From assembly GCA_030539395.1 (NCBI GenBank), contig JAUNSC010000001.1, forward strand, positions 124,001 through 188,000: 64,000 nt of DNA, read 5' to 3'. Positions 14,464 to 53,868 of this stretch are shown here, piece after piece; position 1 is the stretch's first letter, and each line of letters starts with the position of its first letter. Source of the stretch: Eubacteriales bacterium. GTDB lineage: Bacteria > Bacillota > Clostridia > Lachnospirales > Lachnospiraceae. Made by a program: the position numbers and the translations under genes. The notes under the pieces are model-generated. The model saw only the letters and a list, made by a program, of their open reading frames with translations, searched no databases and was not told where the DNA came from.

Positions 14464-14538
14464 GCTTAGCATGAATAAAAAGACAAATTAAATTTATTTC
14501 ATGAATGCCATTTTGGCAGGGGGAAAGGATGGAGAAAG

Positions 14539-15237
14539 ATGGCCTGGTTCAATAACTGGTTAACAGATTTCTGCGATACATTCTCTAAATGCTTTATAAA
14601 AGATGACCGCTACATGCTTCTTGTAGATGGCATCGGAGTCACCATAAAAGTTTCTCTCTTTGCGGTGGTGCTCGGAGTCCTCATCGGTCTTTTGATTGCT
14701 CTTTGCAATCTTTCTAAAAATAAAGTACTTAGACTGATCGGCGGAATATATACGGATGTGATCCGCGGAACACCGTCAGTTACGCAGTTGATGATTATTT
14801 ATTTTGTTATTTTTGCAAAAGTACACTGGTACAAATGGATTATTGCGGCGATTGCATTTGGTATAAATTCCGGTGCATATGTATCTGAGATTATCAGAGC
14901 GGGAATCCTGTCTATTGACAGGGGGCAGACAGAAGCCGGAAGGTCACTTGGTCTCAGCGGATACCAGACAATGGTACATATTGTCATTCCTCAGGCTGTA
15001 AAGAATATTTTCCCGGCACTTTGTAATGAGTTTATCGTTCTTATTAAAGAGACAGCTATTGTTGGTTATGTAGGGCTTGTAGATATTCAGAAGGCCGGAG
15101 ATTACATTAAGAGTAATACATTTGAAGCGTTTATGCCGCTTATCGGAACAGCGATTATCTATTATGTATTGATTAAGATTCTGACATTGGCTCTGGGGCG
15201 CGTGGAGAGTAAGCTGAGAGAGTCTGAAGTCAGATAG
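14539..15237 (+). CDS. Polar amino acid ABC transporter permease (GlnP/HisM type)
   Basis: 232 aa membrane protein with about five hydrophobic segments. It shows the permease signature '[14 protein letters not shown]' and the EAA loop '[22 protein letters not shown]' (given here in part) that contacts the ATPase. It forms the channel of a polar amino acid importer with the following ATPase and binding protein. Start ATG 14539 sits behind GGGGGAAAGGATGGAG. First gene of a permease-ATPase-receptor operon. Specificity (glutamine, cystine, arginine and so on) cannot be read from the sequence. Confidence 0.92.
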
Positions 15238-15253
15238 GAAGGAGAGCGGACTT

Positions 15254-15976
15254 GTGATTAAAGTTAAAAATTTGTATAAAAAGTTCGACGATCTGGAAGT
15301 ACTAAATGGAATTGATGAACATATTTCCAAAGGTGAAGTAGTTGTGGTCATCGGACCATCAGGTTCCGGTAAAAGTACCTTTCTGCGATGTCTGAACCTT
15401 CTGGAAGAGGTGACGAAGGGTGATATTTATGTAGACGATGAACTGATCACCGCACCCGGAGTAAACGTAAATAAGGTAAGACAGAAAATGGGAATGGTGT
15501 TTCAGCACTTTAATCTGTTTCCCCATCTCACAATTATGGAAAATATTACCCTTGCTCCTACTCTTCTGAAAAAGATGACAAAAGAAGAGGCTGTAAAAAA
15601 GGGACAGGAACTTCTGGAAAGAGTAGGCCTGGCAGAGAAGGCAGACGCTTATCCGGCACAGCTTTCAGGCGGACAGAAACAGCGTGTGGCGATTGCCCGT
15701 GCACTTGCCATGAATCCGGAGATCATGCTGTTTGATGAACCGACCTCTGCCCTTGATCCTGAGATGGTAGGAGAAGTGCTTGAGGTTATGAAGGATCTGG
15801 CAAAATCAGGAATGACTATGGTGATCGTTACACATGAGATGGGATTTGCAAGAGAAGTCGCATCCAGAGTCCTTTTTATGGATCAGGGAGTTGTAATGGA
15901 AAGCGGAAGACCGGAAGAGATCTTCTCGAATCCGCAGAATGAAAGAACGAAGCTTTTCCTGAGTAAGGTACTTTAA
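15254..15976 (+). CDS. Polar amino acid ABC transporter ATPase (GlnQ type)
   Basis: Full single-NBD ATPase of 240 aa: Walker [11 protein letters not shown]-loop '[15 protein letters not shown]', signature [15 protein letters not shown], Walker B '[14 protein letters not shown]', switch His in 'VTHEMGFA'. The closest family is GlnQ/HisP. The start codon is GTG 15254, about 9 nt after AAGGAGAG. Sixteen bp follow the permease stop, so the two are co-transcribed. Confidence 0.93.
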
Positions 15977-16043
15977 TGATGTATGCTGAGTTTCTTTATA
16001 AAGAAATTTAACATAAAATTAATTTAAAATGGAGGAAGATATT

Positions 16044-16796
16044 ATGAAAAGAATGACAAAGGCAGCAGCACTTGTAATGGCAGCAGCTATGATGGCAGCA
16101 GTTCCGGTATCCGCAGAGGATACGCTTACATTTGGAACAAACCCGGAATTCCCGCCCTTCGAGTATGTAACATCAAATGGTGTGATCGATACATATGACG
16201 GTATCGATATGGCTATCGCAAAAGCAATTGCAGAAGACAATGGTATGACAGCAGCAGTAGAAAACATGGAGTTTGATTCTCTTCTGGTTGCACTGCAGAA
16301 CGGACAGGTTGACGCAGTTATCGCAGGTATGACTGTGACAGATGAAAGAAAGGAAGCAGTTGATTTCTCTACACCGTACTACACAGCTACACAGGTTATG
16401 ATCGTAAAAGAAGATTCTGATATCGAAAAAGCAGAAGATATGGCTGACAAGAAAATCTGCGTTATCCAGGGATATACAGGTCAGGTATGTGTTGATGAAA
16501 TGGGTTACGAGTATGAATCCTTTAAAAAGGGTACAGAAGCAGTTATGGAACTCGTAAATGACAAATGTGACGTTGTAGTAATTGATTCTGCAACAGCACA
16601 GCAGTATGTAAGTGACAATGAAGGCCTGAAGATCGTGGAAGATGCTGATGCATTCGGAGCAGAAGAATACGCAATTGCAGTTCAGAAAGGAAACACAGAA
16701 CTGCTTGATAAGATCAATGCCTCTGTCGAAAAAATGCTGGAAGACGGAACAATTTCTGAGCTGGCAGCACAGTATGCAGAAGTAGAGGCAGAGTAA
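16044..16796 (+). CDS. Amino acid ABC transporter substrate-binding protein
   Basis: 250 aa SBP_bac_3 receptor. Residues 1-24 are a signal peptide (Lys-Arg start, Ala-rich core, cleavage after VSA). The mature part opens 'LTFGTNPEFPPFEY', with 'DVVVIDSATAQQYV' and 'EYAIAVQKGN' in the second lobe. There is no lipobox Cys, unusual for a Gram-positive receptor, so it may be released or held by its partners. Start ATG 16044 lies behind GGAGGA; the frame extends 5 codons further without an SD. Third gene of the operon, 67 bp after the ATPase. A weak GC-rich inverted repeat (GACGGG/CCCGTC) follows near 16838. Confidence 0.9.
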   Translation: MKRMTKAAALVMAAAMMAAVPVSAEDTLTFGTNPEFPPFEYVTSNGVIDTYDGIDMAIAKAIAEDNGMTAAVENMEFDSLLVALQNGQVDAVIAGMTVTDERKEAVDFSTPYYTATQVMIVKEDSDIEKAEDMADKKICVIQGYTGQVCVDEMGYEYESFKKGTEAVMELVNDKCDVVVIDSATAQQYVSDNEGLKIVEDADAFGAEEYAIAVQKGNTELLDKINASVEKMLEDGTISELAAQYAEVEAE

Positions 16797-43708: not shown

Positions 43709-43779
43709 GCTTTTTGTGAAGTTTAAGATGCTTTTTGTGAAAAAAGTATAATTAGGATGGGAATAAAATGTATTATAAT
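43709..43779 (+). promoter_or_regulatory. LytTR-type promoter of the regulator-kinase operon
   Basis: Direct repeats GCTTTTTGTGAA at 43709-43720 and 43730-43741, 21 bp start to start, fit LytTR sites (about two helical turns). The -10 TATAAT (43774-43779, in GTATTATAAT) begins 38 bp after the second TGTGAA and has no proper -35, as expected for an activated promoter. An alternative -10 TATAAT sits at 43747-43752. Same layout as at 45940-46004. Confidence 0.7.
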
Positions 43780-43884
43780 CTGTATAGTAGAAAACAAAAA
43801 AGAGAAGTTTTGTCAGAATAAGACATTTAATCAGATGGTTAGATGTCTTGTTTTGGCGGTCATAATTCTCATGAAAGGTATGAC

Positions 43885-44622
43885 ATGATGAAGATTGCGG
43901 TATGTGATGACAGAAAAGAAAACCTGGAGGAACTGTGCAGCTATATAGCAGAATATTTTACAGAAAGGGAAGATAATGAATATCAGCTGTATAGCTGCCT
44001 TTCAGGGAAAGAACTTTTGAATGTAATAGAAAAGAAACAATTTGATATTTATTTTCTGGATGTCCTTATGCCGGAAATCGGCGGCATGGAAATCGGACGG
44101 ATGATACGGGAAAAAAATCAAGAAGCGATTATCGTATATATTTCTGTTTCAAAGGAATTTGCTTTTGAAGCATTTGGAGTGAGAGCTTTCCAGTATCTGC
44201 AAAAACCGGTAAAAAAAGAAGAACTGTATGATGTTTTTGATCAGATTATGTGTTTTGTGAAAAGAAAACAGGACAGAAGGGTCGGTATTCGTACCAGGGA
44301 AGGTCTGGTAAATGTAAAAATAGATGAAATTATGTATGTGGAAAATATGTCAAGGTGTGCTGTTTATATGATTAAGGATAAAGAACCGGTAGTCAGTGTC
44401 TGCAATAGAGGCTCTTTCGAGAAAAGTGTAAGTTTTCTGAACAGCCATTTTGATTTTGTGCAGCCTCATAAATCTTATTTTGTGAATATGCATTACATTC
44501 ATACATTTAGCTCAAAGAGTCTGATTATGGAGGATGGGACGCAGATTGCTATCAGCAGAAAGAGGTATGAGCATACGAAGAAGAGATACCTTGAATTTTT
44601 AAATAATGGAGAAAAATCATGA
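43885..44622 (+). CDS. LytTR-family response regulator
   Basis: 245 aa. Receiver domain 1-120 with acidic pocket 'VCDDRKEN', phospho-acceptor Asp59 in 'YFLDVLMPEIGG' and Lys in 'YLQKPVKKEEL'. LytTR DNA-binding domain from about 140 to 240: 'IRTREGLVNVKIDEIMYVE', 'FVQPHKSYFVNMHYI' and 'ISRKRYEHTKKRY'. Same class as AgrA, VirR and ComE. The start is ATG 43885 (or 43888) after AAAGG. It overlaps the kinase gene by 4 nt. It probably activates its own promoter and that of the binding-protein operon. Confidence 0.9.
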   Translation: MMKIAVCDDRKENLEELCSYIAEYFTEREDNEYQLYSCLSGKELLNVIEKKQFDIYFLDVLMPEIGGMEIGRMIREKNQEAIIVYISVSKEFAFEAFGVRAFQYLQKPVKKEELYDVFDQIMCFVKRKQDRRVGIRTREGLVNVKIDEIMYVENMSRCAVYMIKDKEPVVSVCNRGSFEKSVSFLNSHFDFVQPHKSYFVNMHYIHTFSSKSLIMEDGTQIAISRKRYEHTKKRYLEFLNNGEKS

Positions 44623-45911
44623 TTAGTATGATGATGTTCTGGCAGTATCGCATCTCGATACTGTTTCTTCTTTTGTTTCTTGTTATTTTTTTGCCGTTGA
44701 GATATAGTAAATGGGTTACTTTTCTGTGTCTGACAGGCTGCTTTGTAATTACGGGTGTTATGGACTATTTATATCTGATCGTGGGAAAAAAACATGAGAT
44801 TTCAGTGTTTTTCACATTGGGGGAAATTATTGTAGTGCAGACGGCTCCTTTTCTGATTGCAAAGTATCGTGACTTTCGTGCCATGTTTGTAGGATTTACT
44901 GCGGCGGGCTACGTGCTGGCTGGGAATATTGTCGGTTCTATTTTGTATATTGCGGGAGTGGATTTTTTGATAGATCTGGCCTGTGAAAGCATAATTCATC
45001 TTCTGATTCTTGGGATACTCATATGGAAAATCAGGGAGAGCTTTTTGATCAGCATGGAAAATACAGAGGTCCAGTGGGGAAAACTCTGCCTGATACCGGC
45101 TTTGTTTTATACGGCAACTTATGCAATTTCAACGTGGCCGGCCAATATTTATAAACAGCCGGAGAACTTATTAGGTGTCTGCTGTATTATGGCTCTTATG
45201 GTAAGCTCCTATATTATGATCATCGGAATGTTCAGCAAACAGAAGCAGGATGAAGAGATGAAACGGAGTATGGAGTACCTGGAAAATTATGCGGAGCAGC
45301 TTAAGCGGGAAGCAGATGTGCTCAGGGAAAAGGAAACGGAGACTGCAGTGATACGGCATGATTTAAGACATTACAGTATTTTAATCAATTCGTATCTTGA
45401 AGATGGGAGAACGGAAGAAATCCGGGAACTTTTAAGAGTATTGAATGAACACGGGGAAGATAGCAAATCTGTCCGTTACTGTGAAAATCTGGCAGTAAAC
45501 GGTATTGTCACTCATTGTGCAAAGCAGGCGAATCAAAATAGCATACGCTTTGATGTTGATATAGAGATACCGCAGAAGATGCGGGTGAATGAGTTCGAGT
45601 TTGCCACGGTGGTATCCAATCTGCTGGAAAATGCTGTTCAGGCAGCAGCTCTGGTAGAAAATAAGCAGGAGAGGTTTGTTAAAATTACGGCTCACGGGAT
45701 AAAAGACAAACTTATTCTGGAGGTTATTAACGGTTGCTCAGGTAAACCGGAAATATCAAAGTCTACAGGGCTTCCGGTGTCACAGGGCGGCAGACGGCAT
45801 GGATATGGGATGAAGAGTGTACGGGCGTTTGCCAATAAAAATGATGCGGTATTTAGTTTTACTGCGGATGAGAAAAACTTTTCGGTGAAAATGTTATTGA
45901 AAATTATTTGA
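44619..45911 (+). CDS. Membrane sensor histidine kinase (AgrC/GHKL type)
   Basis: 430 aa. Six or so membrane helices (about 10-215) without a sizeable external domain, then a coiled coil (220-245), phospho-acceptor His in 'VIRHDLRHYSILINSY', and a GHKL ATPase domain with N-box 'VVSNLLENAVQAA' and G-box 'HGYGMKSVRAF'. This is the topology of peptide-sensing AgrC-like kinases that pair with LytTR regulators. No agrB/agrD-like peptide gene is visible nearby, so the signal may be a lipid, the membrane state or a peptide encoded elsewhere. Co-transcribed with the regulator. Confidence 0.88.
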   Translation: MISMMMFWQYRISILFLLLFLVIFLPLRYSKWVTFLCLTGCFVITGVMDYLYLIVGKKHEISVFFTLGEIIVVQTAPFLIAKYRDFRAMFVGFTAAGYVLAGNIVGSILYIAGVDFLIDLACESIIHLLILGILIWKIRESFLISMENTEVQWGKLCLIPALFYTATYAISTWPANIYKQPENLLGVCCIMALMVSSYIMIIGMFSKQKQDEEMKRSMEYLENYAEQLKREADVLREKETETAVIRHDLRHYSILINSYLEDGRTEEIRELLRVLNEHGEDSKSVRYCENLAVNGIVTHCAKQANQNSIRFDVDIEIPQKMRVNEFEFATVVSNLLENAVQAAALVENKQERFVKITAHGIKDKLILEVINGCSGKPEISKSTGLPVSQGGRRHGYGMKSVRAFANKNDAVFSFTADEKNFSVKMLLKII

Positions 45912-45932
45912 TTTTAATAGTTGGATTTCTTC

Positions 45933-45962
45933 AGACGGCTGTGAAATACAGACCGTCTTTTG
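45933..45962 (+). terminator. Terminator after the kinase gene
   Basis: AGACGG-CTGT / ACAG-a-CCGTCT stem with a GAAAT loop and one bulge, followed by TTTTG. It overlaps the first LytTR-like repeat of the next promoter. Confidence 0.7.
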
Positions 45963-46004
45963 TGAAGAACGAGAGACGGAAAAAGTACCATATCGTATTA
46001 TAAT
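45940..46004 (+). promoter_or_regulatory. LytTR-type promoter of the binding protein-MscS operon
   Basis: TGTGAA at 45940-45945 and 45961-45966 (21 bp apart) and -10 TATAAT at 45999-46004 inside GTATTATAAT, 38 bp after the second repeat, with no good -35. Both distances equal those at 43709-43779. A leader of about 150 nt follows, with a small ACATAA/TTATGT hairpin near 46110 whose role is unclear. Confidence 0.68.
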
Positions 46005-46163
46005 AAACAGGTGAAATATCAGTAGATTGTAATGACAGAGCGGGGGGAGGGTATTACATTTTAGATGTCGCAGACAAAGAAAGTGTGACGATTAACGGCA
46101 GTTTTATACATAAGTTTATGTGTAATCTATTTGGAAAGAGATACAAAAGGAAAGGAATAAAGT

Positions 46164-46934
46164 ATGCAAAGATTTAAGAAAACAGGTGTGTTAGTGCTGG
46201 CATTGTTTTTTGTGCTGGCTGCAATGCCGGGAAAGGCTGCGGCATCCGGAAAAACATTGAGGGTAGGTGTGCGTGAAGATATCATGCATATGGGATATTT
46301 GAATTCCAATACCGGCAAATATTATGGACTGGAAATTGATCTGGCAGATAAGCTGGCAGAAATACTTGGTTATACTGCTGTAGAATACACCAGCGTAAAT
46401 CCTGAGAACCGTAAGGATATGCTTTTGACCGGTGAGGTAGACTGCCTGATTGCGGCATATTCAGTGGAGGCAACACGCCTGGAGAATTTTGATTTTTCTC
46501 CGGCTTACTATACGGATTACAGCTGTGTTATGGTGGAGAAATCTTCTCTGATTCATGAATTGAGTGACCTGGTAGGAAAAAAGACCGGAGTGCTGGAAGG
46601 CGCGAATACGGCGCCTAAACTGTATCAGAAAATGCTTGATATGGAATTGCTCACAGAAGAGGATTCCAAAGGAAGCTCCCTGATAAAGCTGGCTTCTTAT
46701 GAGGAGATGTCTGTTGCTCTTGAGGAGGGGACTGTAGACGCTGTGTGTATGGATGGATGTATTGCCAGGGCTTATATGGAAGATGACAGGGAAATTTTGG
46801 AGGAGACGGTCGGGCAGGAAGAATATGCGGTAGCTACTCTTAAGGATTCAGAACTCAGCCAGCCTGTGGCAGAGGCGATTCAGCGGATGCTGGATGATGG
46901 AACGATAGAAGGATTGATTGAAAAGTGGAACTAG
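46164..46934 (+). CDS. Solute-binding protein (SBP_bac_3) next to an MscS-type channel
   Basis: 256 aa. Signal peptide 1-30 (Lys/Arg start, Leu/Val core, cleavage near AAA-SG); no lipobox Cys. The mature protein has the SBP_bac_3 fold: 'LRVGVREDIMHMGYLN', 'YYGLEIDLADKLAEILGY', 'LLTGEVDCLIAAYS', 'FSPAYYTDYSCVMV' and 'GTVDAVCMDGCIARAY'. No ABC permease of the importer class accompanies it. Instead the gene for the sensor-MscS protein begins 11 bp later, which suggests that it works as a sensory receptor. First gene of the operon. Confidence 0.88.
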   Translation: MQRFKKTGVLVLALFFVLAAMPGKAAASGKTLRVGVREDIMHMGYLNSNTGKYYGLEIDLADKLAEILGYTAVEYTSVNPENRKDMLLTGEVDCLIAAYSVEATRLENFDFSPAYYTDYSCVMVEKSSLIHELSDLVGKKTGVLEGANTAPKLYQKMLDMELLTEEDSKGSSLIKLASYEEMSVALEEGTVDAVCMDGCIARAYMEDDREILEETVGQEEYAVATLKDSELSQPVAEAIQRMLDDGTIEGLIEKWN

Positions 46935-46945
46935 GGGGAGAAAAA

Positions 46946-49894
46946 ATGGCGAAGAAATTGAGAGGAAAAACAATTGCTGCATTTTTGATGATAGTTATTT
47001 GTGTCCTTCTGTTCGGGTTGTTTCTGATAAAAATGCAGACAAAGCTTTCTGTCAGCAATCAGCAGGATAATACAATGGGTAAACTGGATGAGATGCAGGC
47101 AGTTATTGATAATGCAGATGCCATGGCAGAGCAGAACAGGATCAGTTATGATGAGGTGTATCAGTCAAAAGCAGCCAGTGTGGCATATATGGCTAATAAT
47201 GACCAGAGTTTCAAGTGTTCGGATGCACATCTAAAGGAACTGGCCGATATGATGAATGTCAGCAATATCCTGATTATTGATAAAGAAGGCAGGCAGATTG
47301 CCAGAGCGGATAAATCATCTGCCGATTTTACTTATCACCGCTATAATCAGCTTCGCACAGTGTTTGACACAGGAGAGCCTTCCGAAGCTTTCGAGGTAAC
47401 AATAGATGATACTGTGCGCAGATATTACGCTGCTATGATTGATGACGAGCAGGAAGTGGTAATTGAACAAGACCCCGAGGAACTTCATTCTCTTCAGGAG
47501 GATACTTCTTCCTGGAAGAGCATATTGAGCAAAATCAGCGTTGGTCTGAAAGGATTTACTTTTGCCGTATCGAATCAGGATTATACATTTTTATATTATC
47601 CTGATGAGGAAATGATTGGAAGAGATTCACTGGATGCAGGACTTAAGGCAGAGGATCTTGCTGATTACAATTTTGCATGGATGAGTATAAACGGAGAAAA
47701 ATTTTTCTGTGGGGTAAAAAATATTCCGAATGATGATGCTTTTGTAATTTGTGCAGTTCCTCAGGAAGAGATAAATTCTGCAAGAGATGTTACAGTAGCA
47801 ATTGTCCTGTTCATATTTTTTGCAGTAATTACGATTGTAGCAGTTTACTCCATACTGATTCTGAAAGAACAGTGTCAGGAAGAAGCTGTGCAGGTAAAGG
47901 TTACAGATAAACTTTATTACAATAAGACAGTCGGAAGAAAAATTCTTACATTTTCAGGAGTGGGACTTATTTTGATTATTGTTGTCTCCTTCTATATGCA
48001 GACGTTATTTTCTCTCTCAATGCGGTCTATGAGCAACAACCGTCAGGTACAGGAGACAGGGGAGACTCTGAAAAAAAATGATAGTGACATTGAATTGATT
48101 ACGGCACAGTATAATCGTCGTTACTTGAATAAATGTCAGGTTGCAGCTAAAATTCTCAGCGAAAACCATCAGCTTTGGAACAAAGAAGATCTGGCTGAAC
48201 TGAGCAGAGCAATCGGAGCAGAATTTCTTCTGATTTTTGATAAAACCGGAAGAGAAATCGTATCGGATTCTACATATACCAATTTTCAGATCAGCATAAA
48301 TCCGGAAGATCAGTCTTATGAATTCGGAAGTCTGCTGCAGGGCCGGGAATATTATATTCAGGAGGCACAGCCTGATCAGGTATCCGGAACATACCGTCAG
48401 TATATAGGTGTGCTTTTGCAGGATGAAGAGGGAGAGGCCGATGGATTTGTGCAGATGTGTGTCGTTCCGGAAAAACTTGAGGAGGCATTGCAGACTACAA
48501 CACTTCCGTCCGTTTTAAGCGGTGTTAAAGCCAGTGCAGGCGGTTTTGCGTTTGCCATAGATAAAGAAACCGGAAACTTTTCCTGGTTTCCTGATGAGAG
48601 AGTAGACGGAAAGAATGCGCTGGAGTATGGAATGAAGGAAAAACAGCTTCGGGATGGCTATTGTGATTATATTACAATTAACAGCCAGAAATATTTTGCC
48701 TCCAGCCTTGAGACTGAAACGAATTATATTTATGTGGCGGTTCCTCAGAGAAAACTGATGGCTACAAGGCTTCCTGTAGCTTTGGCCAGCGGAGCGGCCA
48801 GCCTGGCTTGTCTGATTCTTGTATTTTTACTTCTGGCTTTCGGCAGAAAAAGTAATGTGCAGATAGAGCCGCAAAAACAGAAAGAGCAGGCTTCCGGTCC
48901 GATGGTAGATGTAATAATGCCTGACGGCTCAACAAAGAAATCTGAAGCTGCTGCCAACCGCTGGTCTGACATGGGAATACAATGGCATGAAAAAACGCCG
49001 GAGCAAAAATTAATAACTATTCTGGAAGCGCTTATGTCGGTTCTGGCACTGGCAATCTGTGTTGCGATTTTATTTAAGGACCGAATTTTTCAGGAAGATT
49101 CTATTTTCCTGCATATTATACAGGGAAACTGGGAACACAGTCTCAATGTCTTCGCATTAACAGGATGCATTATGATCATATGCGTGTGCGGTGTGGCTGT
49201 GATGATCGTGAGGGAGATTTTGCGGCTGCTTGCAAGGGCTATGAATGCCAAGGGAGCTACGATCTGTCATCTTTTACGCAATTTTGTAAAATATATTTCT
49301 GTAATTGCCATGTTATATTATTGCTTTGCACTTTTTGGTGTAGATACACAGACCCTGCTGGCTTCTGCCGGTATTTTGTCTCTGGTCATCGGACTTGGGG
49401 CCAAGGAATTGGTTTCGGATATTTTAGCCGGATTATTTATTATATTTGAAGGGGAGTTTCAGGTAGGCGATATCGTAACCGTGGGAGACTGGCGCGGAAT
49501 CGTACAGGAGATTGGCGTACGTACCACAAAGATTCTCAGTGAAGGTAATAACGTTAAGATTATCAGCAATAGTGCTGTCAGCGGTGTTATTAATATGACC
49601 AAGAATAATTCCCAGTGCTGCTGTGATCTGGGCATCGTAAATGACAGGACATTAGATGAGATTGAAAGTATTTTGACATCAGAACTGCCGCAGTTGAAAT
49701 ATAAGCTCCCGGCTGTTTTAGCAGGCCCTGTCTATAAGGGGGTTTATTCTCTGAGCGGCAGCACGATAAATATCAGACTGGTGACTGAATGCAATGAGGC
49801 TGATAAGGCTCAGCTGGGCAGAGATCTGAATCGTGAGATAAAGATGATTTGCGACAGACATGGCATTACATTAAATTCAATAACTCACTCCTGA
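46946..49894 (+). CDS. MscS-family mechanosensitive channel with two tandem extracytoplasmic sensor modules
   Basis: 982 aa. Order: helix 1 (10-30), external Cache-like module 1 (31-280), helix 2 (283-305), helix 3 (333-355), external module 2 (356-615), helix 4 (about 616-640), linker, two more helices, then an MscS core ('TLLASAGILSLVIGLGAKEL' pore helix, 'GDIVTVGDWRGIVQEIGVRTTKI' beta domain, C-terminal domain to 982). The modules are a duplication: 'GFTFAVSNQDYTFLYYPDEE' and 'GFAFAIDKETGNFSWFPDER' occupy equal places, as do 'ILIIDKEGRQIARAD' and 'LLIFDKTGREIVSDS'. ATG 46946 follows GGGGGAG. It may open in response to ligand or receptor as well as tension (inference). Confidence 0.85.
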   Translation: MAKKLRGKTIAAFLMIVICVLLFGLFLIKMQTKLSVSNQQDNTMGKLDEMQAVIDNADAMAEQNRISYDEVYQSKAASVAYMANNDQSFKCSDAHLKELADMMNVSNILIIDKEGRQIARADKSSADFTYHRYNQLRTVFDTGEPSEAFEVTIDDTVRRYYAAMIDDEQEVVIEQDPEELHSLQEDTSSWKSILSKISVGLKGFTFAVSNQDYTFLYYPDEEMIGRDSLDAGLKAEDLADYNFAWMSINGEKFFCGVKNIPNDDAFVICAVPQEEINSARDVTVAIVLFIFFAVITIVAVYSILILKEQCQEEAVQVKVTDKLYYNKTVGRKILTFSGVGLILIIVVSFYMQTLFSLSMRSMSNNRQVQETGETLKKNDSDIELITAQYNRRYLNKCQVAAKILSENHQLWNKEDLAELSRAIGAEFLLIFDKTGREIVSDSTYTNFQISINPEDQSYEFGSLLQGREYYIQEAQPDQVSGTYRQYIGVLLQDEEGEADGFVQMCVVPEKLEEALQTTTLPSVLSGVKASAGGFAFAIDKETGNFSWFPDERVDGKNALEYGMKEKQLRDGYCDYITINSQKYFASSLETETNYIYVAVPQRKLMATRLPVALASGAASLACLILVFLLLAFGRKSNVQIEPQKQKEQASGPMVDVIMPDGSTKKSEAAANRWSDMGIQWHEKTPEQKLITILEALMSVLALAICVAILFKDRIFQEDSIFLHIIQGNWEHSLNVFALTGCIMIICVCGVAVMIVREILRLLARAMNAKGATICHLLRNFVKYISVIAMLYYCFALFGVDTQTLLASAGILSLVIGLGAKELVSDILAGLFIIFEGEFQVGDIVTVGDWRGIVQEIGVRTTKILSEGNNVKIISNSAVSGVINMTKNNSQCCCDLGIVNDRTLDEIESILTSELPQLKYKLPAVLAGPVYKGVYSLSGSTINIRLVTECNEADKAQLGRDLNREIKMICDRHGITLNSITHS

Positions 49895-49960
49895 CAGGAA
49901 TTTCGTGACTATCTGCAGGGAATTCGTTGAAAATAATAATCCTGAAAGGAGGGGGTTCGT

Positions 49961-51139
49961 ATGGAAGAAAGAGAGGACATTGAAAAGGCTAATATAGAAT
50001 GGCGTTATCTGGATTTGAAACATCAAAGCGAGGAAATATATATCAGCCGTTTTGAAGAGTCAAAGAGTGGGGAAGAGGCGGCAGTCAATCCCGGGGAAAT
50101 GCCGGTTCATTATGCCACTATCCGCTGCAGGGACGGAAAATGGGAGATAGAGGATACCAGCACAAAGTTTGGTGTCAAAATCAACGGGATAAAGATGAAT
50201 GAGAATACTCTGCTGCAGGAAAATGATGAAATCTGCATTGGAGATACACTATTCTATTTTACCGGCATGCAATTAAAATACAGTCACAGACAGTATACAG
50301 AAAATCGACTGTCTATTCATATTGAAGAGCGCAGCGTGTGGACACTTTTTAAGAAGAAGACACTTCTTGAAGATATTGATTTGACTATTTATCCTGGCGA
50401 AATGGTGCTTCTGTTGGGAGGGTCCGGTGCAGGAAAAACGACTTTTATTAATGCGGTTACCGGATATGAAAAAGCAAAAGCTACGATTCTTGAAGGGGAT
50501 CGTGATATTTACCGAAACTATAATCAGCTAAAATACAACATCGGAATGGTTCCGCAGCAGGATTTGCTGCGCATGGATGATACGGTACAGATGACATTGA
50601 TGAATGCGGCAGAAATGAGGATGCCGGTACACTTTTCTGCACAGGAGCGGGAAGCGCGTGTTAAGGAGCTTCTGGAGATGTTTGGCCTGGATGCCGAGGC
50701 AGATGAGCTGGTGGGTAAACTTTCCGGAGGACAGAGAAAGCGTCTGTCCATATGCGTAGAATTTGTGGCGGCTCCGGATTTGTTTATCCTGGATGAACCG
50801 GATTCCGGTCTGGATGGGGTAATGGCGCGGGAATTGATGGAATATCTGAGAAAGATTGCTGATGACAGAAAAATCGTCATGGTGATTACCCACACACCGG
50901 ACAGAGTAATTGATCTTTTTGATAAGGTGATTGTACTGGCTAAAGGAACAGAGGACCATGTAGGACATCTGGTTTATTATGGTTCTGTTGAAGAGGCAGG
51001 GGAGTTTTTTGGTATAGATTCTATGGAGGAAATTTTAAGCCTGATTAACAGTAAGGATGAAGGGGGAGAAGGCCTTGCTGACGAGTATCTTGAGAAATAT
51101 CAGAAACTTGTCGGGGAAAAGGAGGAAGTATGCAAATAA
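49961..51139 (+). CDS. FHA-domain ABC transporter ATPase (ABCG-like)
   Basis: 392 aa. Residues 25-100 look like an FHA phosphothreonine-binding domain: 'YISRFE', 'VHYATIRCRDGKWEIEDTST', 'GVKINGIKM' (the Asn-Gly pair) and 'IGDTLFYF'. The canonical N-terminal Gly-Arg is not obvious, so binding may be altered. From 130 follows an ABC ATPase: Walker A GGSGAGKT (153-160), signature LSGGQRKR (254-261), Walker B 'LFILDEPDSGLDG'. AGGAGGGGG lies just before the ATG. It overlaps the permease gene by 10 nt. FHA-ABC proteins are usually linked to Ser/Thr kinases; none is in the window. Confidence 0.85.
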   Translation: MEEREDIEKANIEWRYLDLKHQSEEIYISRFEESKSGEEAAVNPGEMPVHYATIRCRDGKWEIEDTSTKFGVKINGIKMNENTLLQENDEICIGDTLFYFTGMQLKYSHRQYTENRLSIHIEERSVWTLFKKKTLLEDIDLTIYPGEMVLLLGGSGAGKTTFINAVTGYEKAKATILEGDRDIYRNYNQLKYNIGMVPQQDLLRMDDTVQMTLMNAAEMRMPVHFSAQEREARVKELLEMFGLDAEADELVGKLSGGQRKRLSICVEFVAAPDLFILDEPDSGLDGVMARELMEYLRKIADDRKIVMVITHTPDRVIDLFDKVIVLAKGTEDHVGHLVYYGSVEEAGEFFGIDSMEEILSLINSKDEGGEGLADEYLEKYQKLVGEKEEVCK

Positions 51140-52071
51140 AGCTCTGGTTCTCAGATGGACAGCGGCGCACAGGACGCTTGGGACAGACTAAAATTTACCT
51201 TGGTAAACTGTTTCGGATATTTATCCATGAGAGAGACTGGAAGGTGCTGCCCATGTCAGCATTAATTGCTTTCATGGTAGCGTATGTAGTGGGGAAAAAT
51301 ATGTTTATAAATATGGAGGGAACAAAAATTGGTTCTCTGGCATTTGTCTGCTGCTGTATCTGGAATGGGTTTTTTAATTCCATTCAGGTAGTCTGCCGTG
51401 AACGTCCTATTATTAAAAGAGAGCATCGTGCAGGTTTGCATATTTCCTCATACATAGCCGCACATATCATTTATCAGGCTTTTCTTTGCATTCTGCAGGT
51501 AATAATTACTTTGACAGTCTACTGGTTTGCAGGAATGAATTTTCCGTCGGAGGGACTGGTAACCGGAAGTTTTGTGCCGGACATGGCAATTACACTGTTC
51601 CTGATTACGTTTGCTTCGGATATGATGGCATTGATGGTATCCTGTATTGTACGCACCACTACTTCAGCTATGACGGTAATGCCGTTTTTGCTCATTGTTC
51701 AGCTGGTATTTGCCGGAGTGGCTTTTCCGCTGCACGGCATTCCGGAGAAACTTTCCAGCGCTACTATCAGTAAGTGGGGAATCTATGCGGTATGTACTGA
51801 ATCCAATTATAACGGACTCCCATCTACTATTGTGATTAAGGAACTGCAAATGTTTCGGAGTATTCCGGAAGTAGCAGAGCTTTATAATGCGCTTAGTAAA
51901 GAGAATAAAGAAAATCTTGAAAAATATACTGCACAGTATCTGAATGTAGATCATTATGACTACCAGGTAAATAATATTTTGAAAGAGTGGGGGATATTGC
52001 TGGCCTTTGCAGTGCTGTATGCACTAATTGGAATGGTCAGTCTGGAATTTGTAGATTATGATAAGCGATAA
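51130..52071 (+). CDS. ABC-2 type (ABCG-like) permease
   Basis: 313 aa. A cytoplasmic N-terminus of about 40 residues with 'FRIFIHERDWKVLPMSALIA' is followed by six hydrophobic segments; 'VVCRERPIIKREHRAGLHISSYI' carries the conserved ER...RE pattern of ABCG permeases. A soluble loop (about 225-285, 'VAELYNALSKENKENLEKY') lies before the last helix. Forms an exporter with the FHA ATPase. Start ATG 51130 behind GGAGGAAG. Last gene of the cluster, followed by a strong terminator. Confidence 0.83.
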   Translation: MQIKLWFSDGQRRTGRLGQTKIYLGKLFRIFIHERDWKVLPMSALIAFMVAYVVGKNMFINMEGTKIGSLAFVCCCIWNGFFNSIQVVCRERPIIKREHRAGLHISSYIAAHIIYQAFLCILQVIITLTVYWFAGMNFPSEGLVTGSFVPDMAITLFLITFASDMMALMVSCIVRTTTSAMTVMPFLLIVQLVFAGVAFPLHGIPEKLSSATISKWGIYAVCTESNYNGLPSTIVIKELQMFRSIPEVAELYNALSKENKENLEKYTAQYLNVDHYDYQVNNILKEWGILLAFAVLYALIGMVSLEFVDYDKR

Positions 52072-52074
52072 GAA

Positions 52075-52113
52075 AAACATGGTTGATGAATTTGTTCATC
52101 AGCCATGTTTTTT
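52075..52113. terminator. Terminator closing the LytTR cluster
   Basis: 16-bp stem AAACATGG-T-TGATGAA / TTCATCA-G-CCATGTTT with one G-U pair and a 4-nt loop, flanked by A and T runs, so it can serve both strands (convergent AGCS gene). Confidence 0.9.
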
Positions 52114-52118
52114 AAGTC

Positions 52119-53546
52119 TTATTTATCTTTTTTTCCGTTATCTATTTCTTTTAAAGAATTTGTAACTGCTTTTGTCAGTGCAAACAGTGCAATGGCGTTG
52201 GGGATAACCATCAGATAGTTAAATGCATCTGTCAATTCCCATACAAGATCGTTGGACATCAGTGTTCCAAGGAAGATAAAGATAAGGGCAATTATGGTAT
52301 AGAGTTTTGTGCTGATTTTTGTATTTTTCTCACCAAAAAGATAGACCACATTGATTTTACCAAACATGTTCCATCCAAGAATTGTGGAAAAAGCGAAGAA
52401 AAACAGGCAGACAGCCACAAACATGGCTCCCGGGTTTGTACCAAATACTGTGCCGAATGCTGTCTGGGCAAGATTAGCTTTGGTAATCGTTGTACTTGCA
52501 GCAGCGGCACCGCACTCAAAGAGTGGGCCGTCTGATGTATAAAGCGTAGAGATAATTACTAAGGCATTCAGGGTAAGTACTACAAAAGTATCAATAAACA
52601 CACCGGCCATGGCAACAATACCCTGATCATGAGGATGAGCCACATTTGCCTGTGCATGTGCATGAGGGGTTGAACCCATACCGGCTTCATTGGAGAAGAG
52701 TCCGCGTTTTGCGCCCTGGCTGATGGCAGCTTTTAATGCGGCACCGAACGCACCGCCGATGACAGCCTGCGGCTGAAATGCATATTTAAAAATCATTCCC
52801 AAAGTTGCAGGAATATATGCAGCACGTGATATAAGTATGATTAAGCCGCCCAGCAAAAAAACAGCTGCCATGACCGGAACAAGTTTTTCACATACGGATG
52901 CAAGACGCTGTACACCGCCAAGAAAAATAAATCCGCAGATGATAACCAAAACGATTCCTGCAGCCCATGAGGGAATTCCAAAGGCTGTTTCGATAGTGGA
53001 GCCGATTGAATTGGATTGGACCATACATCCCATAAATCCAAGGGCAAGAATAATTGCTACAGCAAAGAAGCAGGAAAGAAATTTACCAAAGCTGCCTTTA
53101 AATGCGGTTGTAATGTAATAAACAGGACCGCCATAGATATTTCCATTTTTATCGATGATGCGTGTTTTCTGTGCCAGAACTGCTTCAGCGTAAATTGTAG
53201 CCATACCTAAAAAGGCAATTACCCACATCCAGAAAATAGCTCCGGGACCGCCGGTAAGAATGGCTCCGGATGCACCGATAATATTGCCGGTACCTACCTG
53301 GGCAGCAATGGCTGTTGCAAGTGCCTGAAAAGAACTCATACCTTTTTCCTGCTTACCGCCTTTTAATGACAGATTGCCGAATACTTTTTTCATACCGGCA
53401 CCAAAGTAGCGGATCTGGACGAAACGGGTTTTGAAAGTATACCAGAGTCCCACCGCAATCAGCAGAAAAACCAGAATGTAACTGGATAAATAGTTGTTGA
53501 TTGTCACCACAACGGGATAGAGTGACAATTCGATTGATTGTAACAT
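52119..53546 (-). CDS. Na+/glycine(alanine) symporter, AGCS family
   Basis: 475 aa, about eleven membrane helices. AGCS signatures are 'GNIIGASGAILTGGPGAIFWMW', given here in part, 'YAEAVLAQKTR', 'GAKRGLFSNEAGMGSTPHA' and 'NMFGKINVVYLFGEKN'. Imports glycine or alanine with Na+. The tandem glycine riboswitch in its leader says that glycine is the physiological signal and probably the substrate. I start at ATG 53546 behind GGAGGAG; the reading frame is open for 47 more codons upstream, but these fall in the riboswitch leader and terminator. Confidence 0.93.
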   Translation of the reverse strand: MLQSIELSLYPVVVTINNYLSSYILVFLLIAVGLWYTFKTRFVQIRYFGAGMKKVFGNLSLKGGKQEKGMSSFQALATAIAAQVGTGNIIGASGAILTGGPGAIFWMWVIAFLGMATIYAEAVLAQKTRIIDKNGNIYGGPVYYITTAFKGSFGKFLSCFFAVAIILALGFMGCMVQSNSIGSTIETAFGIPSWAAGIVLVIICGFIFLGGVQRLASVCEKLVPVMAAVFLLGGLIILISRAAYIPATLGMIFKYAFQPQAVIGGAFGAALKAAISQGAKRGLFSNEAGMGSTPHAHAQANVAHPHDQGIVAMAGVFIDTFVVLTLNALVIISTLYTSDGPLFECGAAAASTTITKANLAQTAFGTVFGTNPGAMFVAVCLFFFAFSTILGWNMFGKINVVYLFGEKNTKISTKLYTIIALIFIFLGTLMSNDLVWELTDAFNYLMVIPNAIALFALTKAVTNSLKEIDNGKKDK

Positions 53547-53624
53547 TTTTCTCCTCCGTATCTGTTCAAATATCCTTGCACGGCATTTAACCAGCCTTTT
53601 CCTTCCTGCTAAATGCCATATGCA

Positions 53625-53658
53625 TAAAAAACGGAACAGATGAAAAATCACTGTTCCG
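53625..53658 (-). terminator. Leader terminator between riboswitch and symporter gene
   Basis: On the minus strand CGGAACAG / CTGTTCCG (8 bp, 11-nt loop) is followed by TTTTTT. It lies between the glycine aptamers and the start codon and is the likely expression platform. A second hairpin, GGCATTTA / TAAATGCC (53582-53619), follows before the ribosome binding site. Confidence 0.8.
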
Positions 53659-53699
53659 GAGAAGACAATATCAAGAAACACAAACAAGTTTGTCTGTGT

Positions 53700-53868
53700 T
53701 TCTTTACTCTGTCCTTTTACCTGAGAGATTCAGCATAATTTTGCCTTGCACCTTCGGTACTCATTGTTGAGATTCTCCAGAGCCACATCCATTCTTAGTC
53801 TTTATCCGAAACGGACGCCTGAGAGTTTTACTCCTTCGGCAGGCCTGTGCCATTTCCTAAGAATTTCA
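53700..53868 (-). promoter_or_regulatory. Tandem glycine riboswitch
   Basis: Read on the minus strand. Aptamer 1 is closed by ATTCTTAG / CTAAGAAT (53857-53864 with 53791-53798) and contains 'GCCGAAGGAG' and 'AACTCTCAGGC'. Aptamer 2 is closed by CTCTG / CAGAG (53778-53782 with 53705-53709) and contains 'GGAGAATCTC', 'ACCGAAGGTGCAA', 'TCTCTCAGG' and 'AAAAGGACAGAG'. These match the glycine riboswitch consensus (Rfam gcvT element). It controls the AGCS symporter gene through the terminator at 53625-53658. Confidence 0.93.

Follow-up and report, generated by a model that had tools for sequence, protein, structure and literature searches.

We analyzed a 64-kb stretch of a Lachnospiraceae genome (G000), referred to here as the window, and report on a cluster of six genes within it. 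The cluster encodes, in order, a LytTR response regulator, a GHKL sensor kinase and, after a gap, a solute-binding protein (SBP) of the SBP_bac_3 family, an MscS-type channel bearing two sensor modules, an FHA-ABC ATPase and an ABC-2 membrane subunit, and it ends at a terminator (Table 1). The original prediction had named these six families at these positions and had treated them as one system, tightly spaced throughout and closed by one terminator. Open reading frames (ORFs) together with Pfam confirmed all six families, NCBIfam scores being mostly far under their curated cut-offs, but the spacing is not tight throughout, since 252 nt separate the kinase gene from the SBP gene. The closing terminator was found where expected; it is not the only such signal, as a further hairpin and a second promoter lie 3′ of the kinase gene. 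Because the kinase–SBP gap holds a terminator-like hairpin and a promoter, the cluster is predicted to comprise two transcription units, one for regulator and kinase and one for receptor, channel and exporter. The hairpin has a counterpart in the cluster of the same-genus genome G300 (stretch L033; -18.5 kcal/mol, z -5.8). In both genomes it overlaps the first half-site of the operator described below (window 45933-45966; L033 6975-7010), and read-through and regulator binding could interfere with each other there. Searching with Rfam at gathering scores gave no match inside the cluster.

Table 1. Features of the cluster, in window coordinates.
Feature	Position	Strand	Support
Operator/promoter 1, before regulator–kinase unit	43715..43779	+	TGTGAA at 43715 and 43736, TATAAT at 43774
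LytTR response regulator	43843..44622	+	Response_reg E 2e-16, LytTR E 2e-9
AgrC-like GHKL sensor kinase	44619..45911	+	HATPase_c_5 E 4e-14
Terminator-like hairpin 3′ of kinase	45933..45958	+	-13.6 kcal/mol, z -3.9
Operator/promoter 2, before receptor–channel unit	45940..46004	+	Half-sites at 45940 and 45961, TATAAT at 45999
SBP_bac_3 receptor with signal peptide	46164..46934	+	E 1e-23
Sensor-MscS channel, 982 aa, two modules	46946..49894	+	MS_channel_2nd E 4e-14, MS_channel_1st E 2e-6
Predicted extracytoplasmic module 1, residues 29-281	47030..47788	+	Limits by hydropathy; homology to module 2
Predicted extracytoplasmic module 2, residues 352-610	47999..48775	+	dCache_1 in 5 of 11 members, E up to 1
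MscS pore and vestibule domain	49013..49891	+	Mean column identity 65%, 11 relatives
ABC ATPase with one degenerate FHA domain	49961..51139	+	ABC_tran E 1e-26, FHA E 7e-5
ABC-2 membrane subunit	51130..52071	+	ABC2_membrane E 2e-18
Closing intrinsic terminator	52072..52113	+	Fold -27.4 kcal/mol, z -9.5

Of 299 genomes in the family, 33 had a match to the sensor half of the channel at E 1e-10 or better; by the listed match ranges, 24 of the 33 matched only beyond about residue 250 and nine across both modules. An order-level sample gave matches in 8 of 392 genomes at 1e-40. With the centre genome counted in every one of these figures and the following, matches were present in 4/8 genomes of the window's own genus, 4/47 of the genus of G152 and 2/4 of the genus of G201. 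Surroundings were then fetched for a subset of the matches as 20 stretches, a further six (three of which were not MscS matches) and a final four, with the GC-rich locus L085 being read by tblastn. The results showed that an SBP_bac_3 gene stands directly before the MscS gene, either overlapping it or no more than about 20 nt away, at 11 loci (the window, G300, G301, G643, G085, G152, G201, G114, G269, G304 and G661). Nine loci, the window counted, have a sensor identity of 42% or more and are called close loci here; among them, all seven with a full two-module protein carry the SBP gene before the channel gene. The pairing of receptor and sensor-MscS protein put forward in the original prediction is thus supported, and the conserved core is an SBP_bac_3 receptor encoded directly before a two-module MscS channel. 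The two close loci without the pair are G651, where the channel match falls in two pieces in different frames, and G668, where it runs from the second module on. In G668 (L088 9745-14075) the MscS protein has the second module only and no SBP, and FHA-ABC and ABC-2 genes follow; as in the window, an FtsH gene (77%) is found at a distance of about 5 kb. A 219-aa ORF adjoins three of the distant sensor-MscS genes (L047 11792-12451, L048 8122-8781 and L049 7943-8602).

The six genes as an obligatory system were rejected. Among the genomes examined, their order was seen again in G300 alone; the FHA-ABC pair accompanies the channel in five of the nine close loci and the regulator pair in four, and in relatives aquaporin and SH3 genes are added.

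No permease or ATPase genes of an importer lie beside the receptor in the cluster, the lack of a permease having been noted already in the original prediction. Genome G000 has four SBP_bac_3 genes, and the other three each adjoin a permease and an ATPase gene (recognised by eye); one of these sets, a complete polar amino-acid importer at 14479-16796 of the window, served as a control for the surroundings of an importer SBP. The receptor as part of an adjacent importer was rejected on this comparison. An SBP serving an importer encoded elsewhere, and standing before the channel gene for convenience of shared expression, would fit the protein itself, which is a usual member of SBP_bac_3 and close to the SBPs of importers: a profile of nine SBPs of this group has PEB1a (2v25) as its nearest solved structure, and a lipobox-like Cys, as in importer SBPs, is present in five of the nine, the window SBP having none. 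We hold this explanation to be improbable, given that the other three SBP_bac_3 genes adjoin their own permease and ATPase, a comparison made without a genome search for SBP-less permeases, and that the pair is kept in 11 loci despite different surroundings.

The likely ligand of the receptor was approached through GlnH, for which PMC6069109 describes a ligand held by Ser164, Arg169 and Asp250, with its side chain contacted by Arg147, Trp232 and Thr162. Equivalent positions were placed by distance along the chain, with 22 residues separating one Arg from the other and 18 separating Trp from Asp, together with the alignment to PEB1a, and not by an alignment with GlnH. They correspond in the window SBP to Ser100, Arg105, Asp197, Arg83, Tyr179 and Ala98 (ORF numbering). 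Across nine SBPs, with those of G643 and G661 left out of the comparison, the first five positions are S/T, R, D, R and Y in all nine, Tyr taking the place of Trp; among them are the counterparts of the Arg for the ligand's side chain and of the Arg and Asp for its alpha groups. The side-chain Arg position is occupied by Leu, Gly and Lys in the three other SBPs of the genome, the third of which contains stops within its match and is also without the conserved alpha-carboxylate Arg. Because most of the contacts that GlnH makes with an acidic amino acid are kept, including the side-chain Arg, the receptor ligand is likely, not certain, to be acidic (Asp or Glu).

The channel gene encodes a protein with about eight hydrophobic helices (10-28, 282-300, 333-351, 611-629, 692-710, 737-755, 781-799 and about 805-833), and two MscS family profiles score over the Pfam cut-off (PF00924, 52.9 bits against a cut-off of 20.2; PF21088, 27.9 against 23.1); the third MscS domain, PF21082, falls slightly below it (20.9 against 21). 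With the N-terminus inside, this helix pattern predicts both modules of about 250 residues outside the cell and the MscS vestibule inside. The two sensor modules that had been proposed are confirmed, and hhalign shows that they share homology (probability 99.9%, E 5e-31). Their likeness to dCache domains is weak: window module 2 reaches 17.7 bits where the cut-off is 45, window module 1 has no Cache match, and across 11 members dCache_1 was seen in module 2 of five and in module 1 of three. When profiles were compared with solved structures, module 1 gave nothing at E up to 1 and module 2 matched five sequences, of which three are chemoreceptors at E of about 0.07 and two are unrelated; the second module was also found in family proteins that look like chemoreceptors (L055, L056 and L057, read by eye). 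Amino-acid dCache domains carry an RxWY core, and neither window module contains WY; as a weak test, this speaks against the modules binding amino acids directly. Mean column identity over 11 relatives is 65% for the channel domain vs 45% for each module. The window and L033 channels end early (49800-49894 in the window), without the C-terminal segment that holds (I)PFPQ or its equivalent in the other nine aligned homologues.

The regulator, whose start is likely at 43885 going by homologues, keeps the receiver Asp in an alignment of four orthologues, and the kinase has an RHDLRH-type box and N and G boxes in the corresponding alignment. As in LytTR two-component systems, the regulator combines a receiver with a LytTR domain and is paired with a histidine kinase. 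AgrB and AgrD peptide-making genes were not among the scanned ORFs of 80 aa or more, shorter ORFs lying outside the scan. Of 12 genomes searched, three have an orthologue of the kinase (59% or more), always beside the SBP-MscS pair, and G643 has it too; weaker kinase matches (25-29%) occur elsewhere in G036 and G085. In G301 the regulator pair follows the channel. A different, unrelated LytTR regulator (28%) is encoded in G085 some 4 kb upstream of the SBP-MscS-aquaporin genes, and upstream there lies a 1140-aa secreted protein that by eye resembles leucine-rich-repeat proteins (L038 12004-16384, minus strand).

Comparison of the intergenic regions revealed a fixed layout, TGTGAA-N15-TGTGAA-N31/32-TATAAT, with a repeat period of 21 bp. 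This layout precedes both units of the window with no mismatch at either site, the next unrelated window sites having four mismatches. A strict operator pattern gave eight matches in 20 genomes, seven of them in clusters (two in the window genome, one in G300, three in G301 and one in G643) and the eighth in G668 away from its cluster, and the reversed pattern, run as a control on the same genomes, gave none. The genomes with cluster matches are the four where this regulator pair was found; of the remaining 16, nine were searched for the kinase, with no close match, and seven were not searched. Each of the four genomes has a strict site before the regulator; the window has another before the SBP gene, and G301 has others before the aquaporin-SBP-MscS operon and an SH3-protein gene. 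A weaker site with a 33-base gap was found before an SH3 gene of G643, and a site with three mismatches before the SH3 gene of G300, about 55 nt ahead of its likely start codon. A 14-genome scan returned 13 matches, six in clusters, and among its eight matches with three mismatches the G300 SH3 site alone was in a cluster; by sequence alone this site is at chance level, and it rests on position. At the L033 SBP promoter the second half-site (two changes) and TATAAT are kept, the first half being not clear. Since one operator layout precedes both units, the LytTR pair plausibly controls both directly and locally through shared operators, by a binding of regulator to operator that we infer from this arrangement; the earlier suggestion that kinase and regulator set expression is plausible on the same grounds.

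LytTR regulatory systems have a membrane inhibitor and no kinase, whereas here a receiver and a kinase are encoded and the repeat is TTTTGTGAA-like. The LytTR domain and 21-bp direct repeats upstream of the promoter are shared with Agr-type LytTR systems and LytTR regulatory systems; in PMC6193735, the known repeats are 9 bp separated by 12 bp, giving the same 21-bp period, and in LytTR regulatory systems they also precede the regulator's own gene.

Genes for MIP aquaporins were present in 6 of 12 genomes searched. In G301, G085 and G201 the sole MIP gene adjoins the SBP-MscS pair on the same strand; in G586 and G026 it is on a different contig from the MscS homologue, and G114 has a 71-aa MIP fragment. 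SH3_3 proteins are encoded in four of the nine close clusters (G300, G301, G643 and G152), and the 64-kb window contains no homologue of the aquaporin or SH3 proteins. Such variation would be expected of a loose neighbourhood, in which the SBP and MscS proteins form the sole functional pair and regulator, exporter, aquaporin and SH3 protein are changing neighbours. Over the nine close loci the regulator pair occurs in four, FHA-ABC in five, the aquaporin in three and the SH3 protein in four, and FHA-ABC is unlinked in G026. We nevertheless give this explanation little chance, because an operator of fixed spacing precedes regulator, SBP, aquaporin and SH3 genes, its strict form being confined to the clusters in the four genomes with the regulator pair (G000, G300, G301 and G643), and because in three genomes the single aquaporin gene is a neighbour of the pair.

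The FHA-ABC and ABC-2 genes follow the channel gene in five close loci (window, G300, G152, G201 and G668) and were not seen beside it in the other four, which include G301, G643 (about 2 kb downstream visible) and G085. Close FHA-ABC relatives occur in 5 of 12 genomes, with one copy beside SBP-MscS in four and two unlinked copies in G026. The ATPase belongs to the family originally named, with an FHA domain that has turned out to be degenerate. In FHA domains, a Ser and an Asn take part in phosphothreonine binding. Both residues are lost in all five cluster copies, with the Arg kept in the window and L033, and the first FHA domain, which the window and L033 copies lack, is degenerate in the remaining three copies. 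The two unlinked G026 copies have two FHA domains each, with Ser and Asn present in both domains; their genes adjoin a protein-kinase/LRR gene (L076 976-5840) or a PP2C phosphatase gene (L075 3627-5941). A phospho-controlled exporter in the cluster was rejected on the loss of Ser and Asn; the pair was probably recruited to the cluster and uncoupled from phospho-control. It may, as originally suggested, export something. Rv1747, the best-known FHA-ABC protein, is a proposed exporter of a mycobacterial glycolipid (PMC5549992) and likewise has an FHA domain attached to its ABC ATPase, along with a membrane part of the ABC-2 type. Unlike Rv1747, the window encodes these parts in two genes, with a single FHA domain that has lost its phosphothreonine residues and no kinase gene beside the pair.

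The same genes could serve a response to envelope stress or antimicrobial peptides, in which the kinase would sense a peptide or membrane damage, osmotic downshock would not be the main signal, and channel, SH3 proteins and ABC exporter would be protective outputs. The AgrC-like kinase with its LytTR regulator, the SH3_3 proteins in four close clusters and the exporter-type pair in five are all consistent with it. The tie of receptor to channel and the aquaporin neighbours are left unexplained by such a response, and the G301, G643 and G085 clusters show no FHA-ABC pair beside the channel; we consider it unlikely, while ranking it above the two alternatives already discussed.

The reading we favor, tentatively and at somewhat under an even chance, is a turgor or osmotic-adaptation module in which an Asp/Glu receptor tunes an MscS channel under local LytTR control. 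The SBP would be a sensor and not part of an importer; it would bind extracellular Asp or Glu and dock on the duplicated sensor modules, and docking would shift the tension at which the channel opens, releasing cytoplasmic solutes. The AgrC-like kinase would drive the LytTR regulator, which would activate its own operon and the receptor–channel operon by way of two repeats offset by 21 bp, of which the second begins 37-38 bp ahead of the -10 box. The same operator stands before the aquaporin-SBP-MscS operon and the SH3-protein gene of G301. The degenerate-FHA ABC pair would be optional, most likely moving an envelope component, probably without phosphothreonine control. In favour of this reading we count the SBP-MscS gene order at 11 loci, the window SBP as the one of four in its genome that lacks importer genes at its side, the GlnH-type ligand residues, the operator matches in the clusters, the sole aquaporin genes next to the pair in three genomes, the SH3_3 proteins of four close clusters and the published GlnH-GlnX-PknG precedent. 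That an acidic-amino-acid receptor on duplicated modules sets the MscS threshold while a LytTR switch co-expresses water-channel and wall-protein genes is a more specific proposal, which we regard as possible but doubtful.

Several observations weigh against this module. The distant two-module proteins of G586, G026 and G036 have no SBP_bac_3 match in the fetched stretch, and neither have the other fetched sensor-MscS loci, the upstream side of G407 being cut by a contig end. G085, G152 and G201 keep the SBP-MscS pair without the regulator pair, and relaxed scans of their stretches did not find the operator, so LytTR regulation is not part of the core. Where GlnH contacts the ligand side chain through Thr, five of nine SBPs, the window's included, have Ala and four have Thr. 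Six of the 12 genomes searched have no aquaporin gene, the window's genome among them. The computation shows the gene content, the SBP-MscS linkage, the duplication of the modules, the operator layout in common and the missing FHA residues, whereas contact between SBP and channel, ligand, gating effect, regulator binding and exporter role are inferred.

The closest precedent, by analogy, would be the GlnH-GlnX-PknG system, where an SBP acts through tandem extracytoplasmic domains, direct contact itself being not demonstrated (PMC6069109, PMC9769921). In that system the gene of an SBP_bac_3 protein for Asp/Glu neighbours the gene of a membrane protein whose two extracytoplasmic sensor domains stand in tandem, and the SBP signals and does not import; the gene arrangement here is alike, and the same role and a probably acidic ligand are proposed. 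GlnX differs in having four-helix bundles and no channel and in acting on the kinase PknG, whereas here sensors that look dCache-like sit on an MscS pore. No PknG-type or other Ser/Thr protein kinase is encoded among the six cluster genes. With MscS-family channels, a family that includes large multi-domain and cyclic-nucleotide-gated (bCNG) kinds, the window protein has the pore helix, beta-domain and vestibule in common; it differs from them in its pair of large extracytoplasmic modules, which are duplicates, and in having its receptor encoded by a gene of its own. The literature searched, with most subscription papers outside its scope, describes no SBP-MscS pair and no MscS/FHA/aquaporin/LytTR system; the parts are known, and the combination and regulon appear new.

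MscS channels are regarded as valves driven by membrane tension, and glutamate is a main cytoplasmic anion released through MscS-type channels. If the proposed module is correct, a solute-release valve would read external or self-released glutamate or aspartate. The conserved receptor–channel pair would mean that some bacteria tune a tension valve by extracellular chemistry, and the local regulon would tie the channel to water flux and wall proteins.

Immediately beyond the closing terminator, the window carries a minus-strand gene (52119-53687) that we take to encode a sodium:alanine/glycine symporter from its resemblance to that family. A glycine riboswitch aptamer (Rfam RF00504, 63.7 bits; 53699-53790, minus strand) sits just upstream of this gene.

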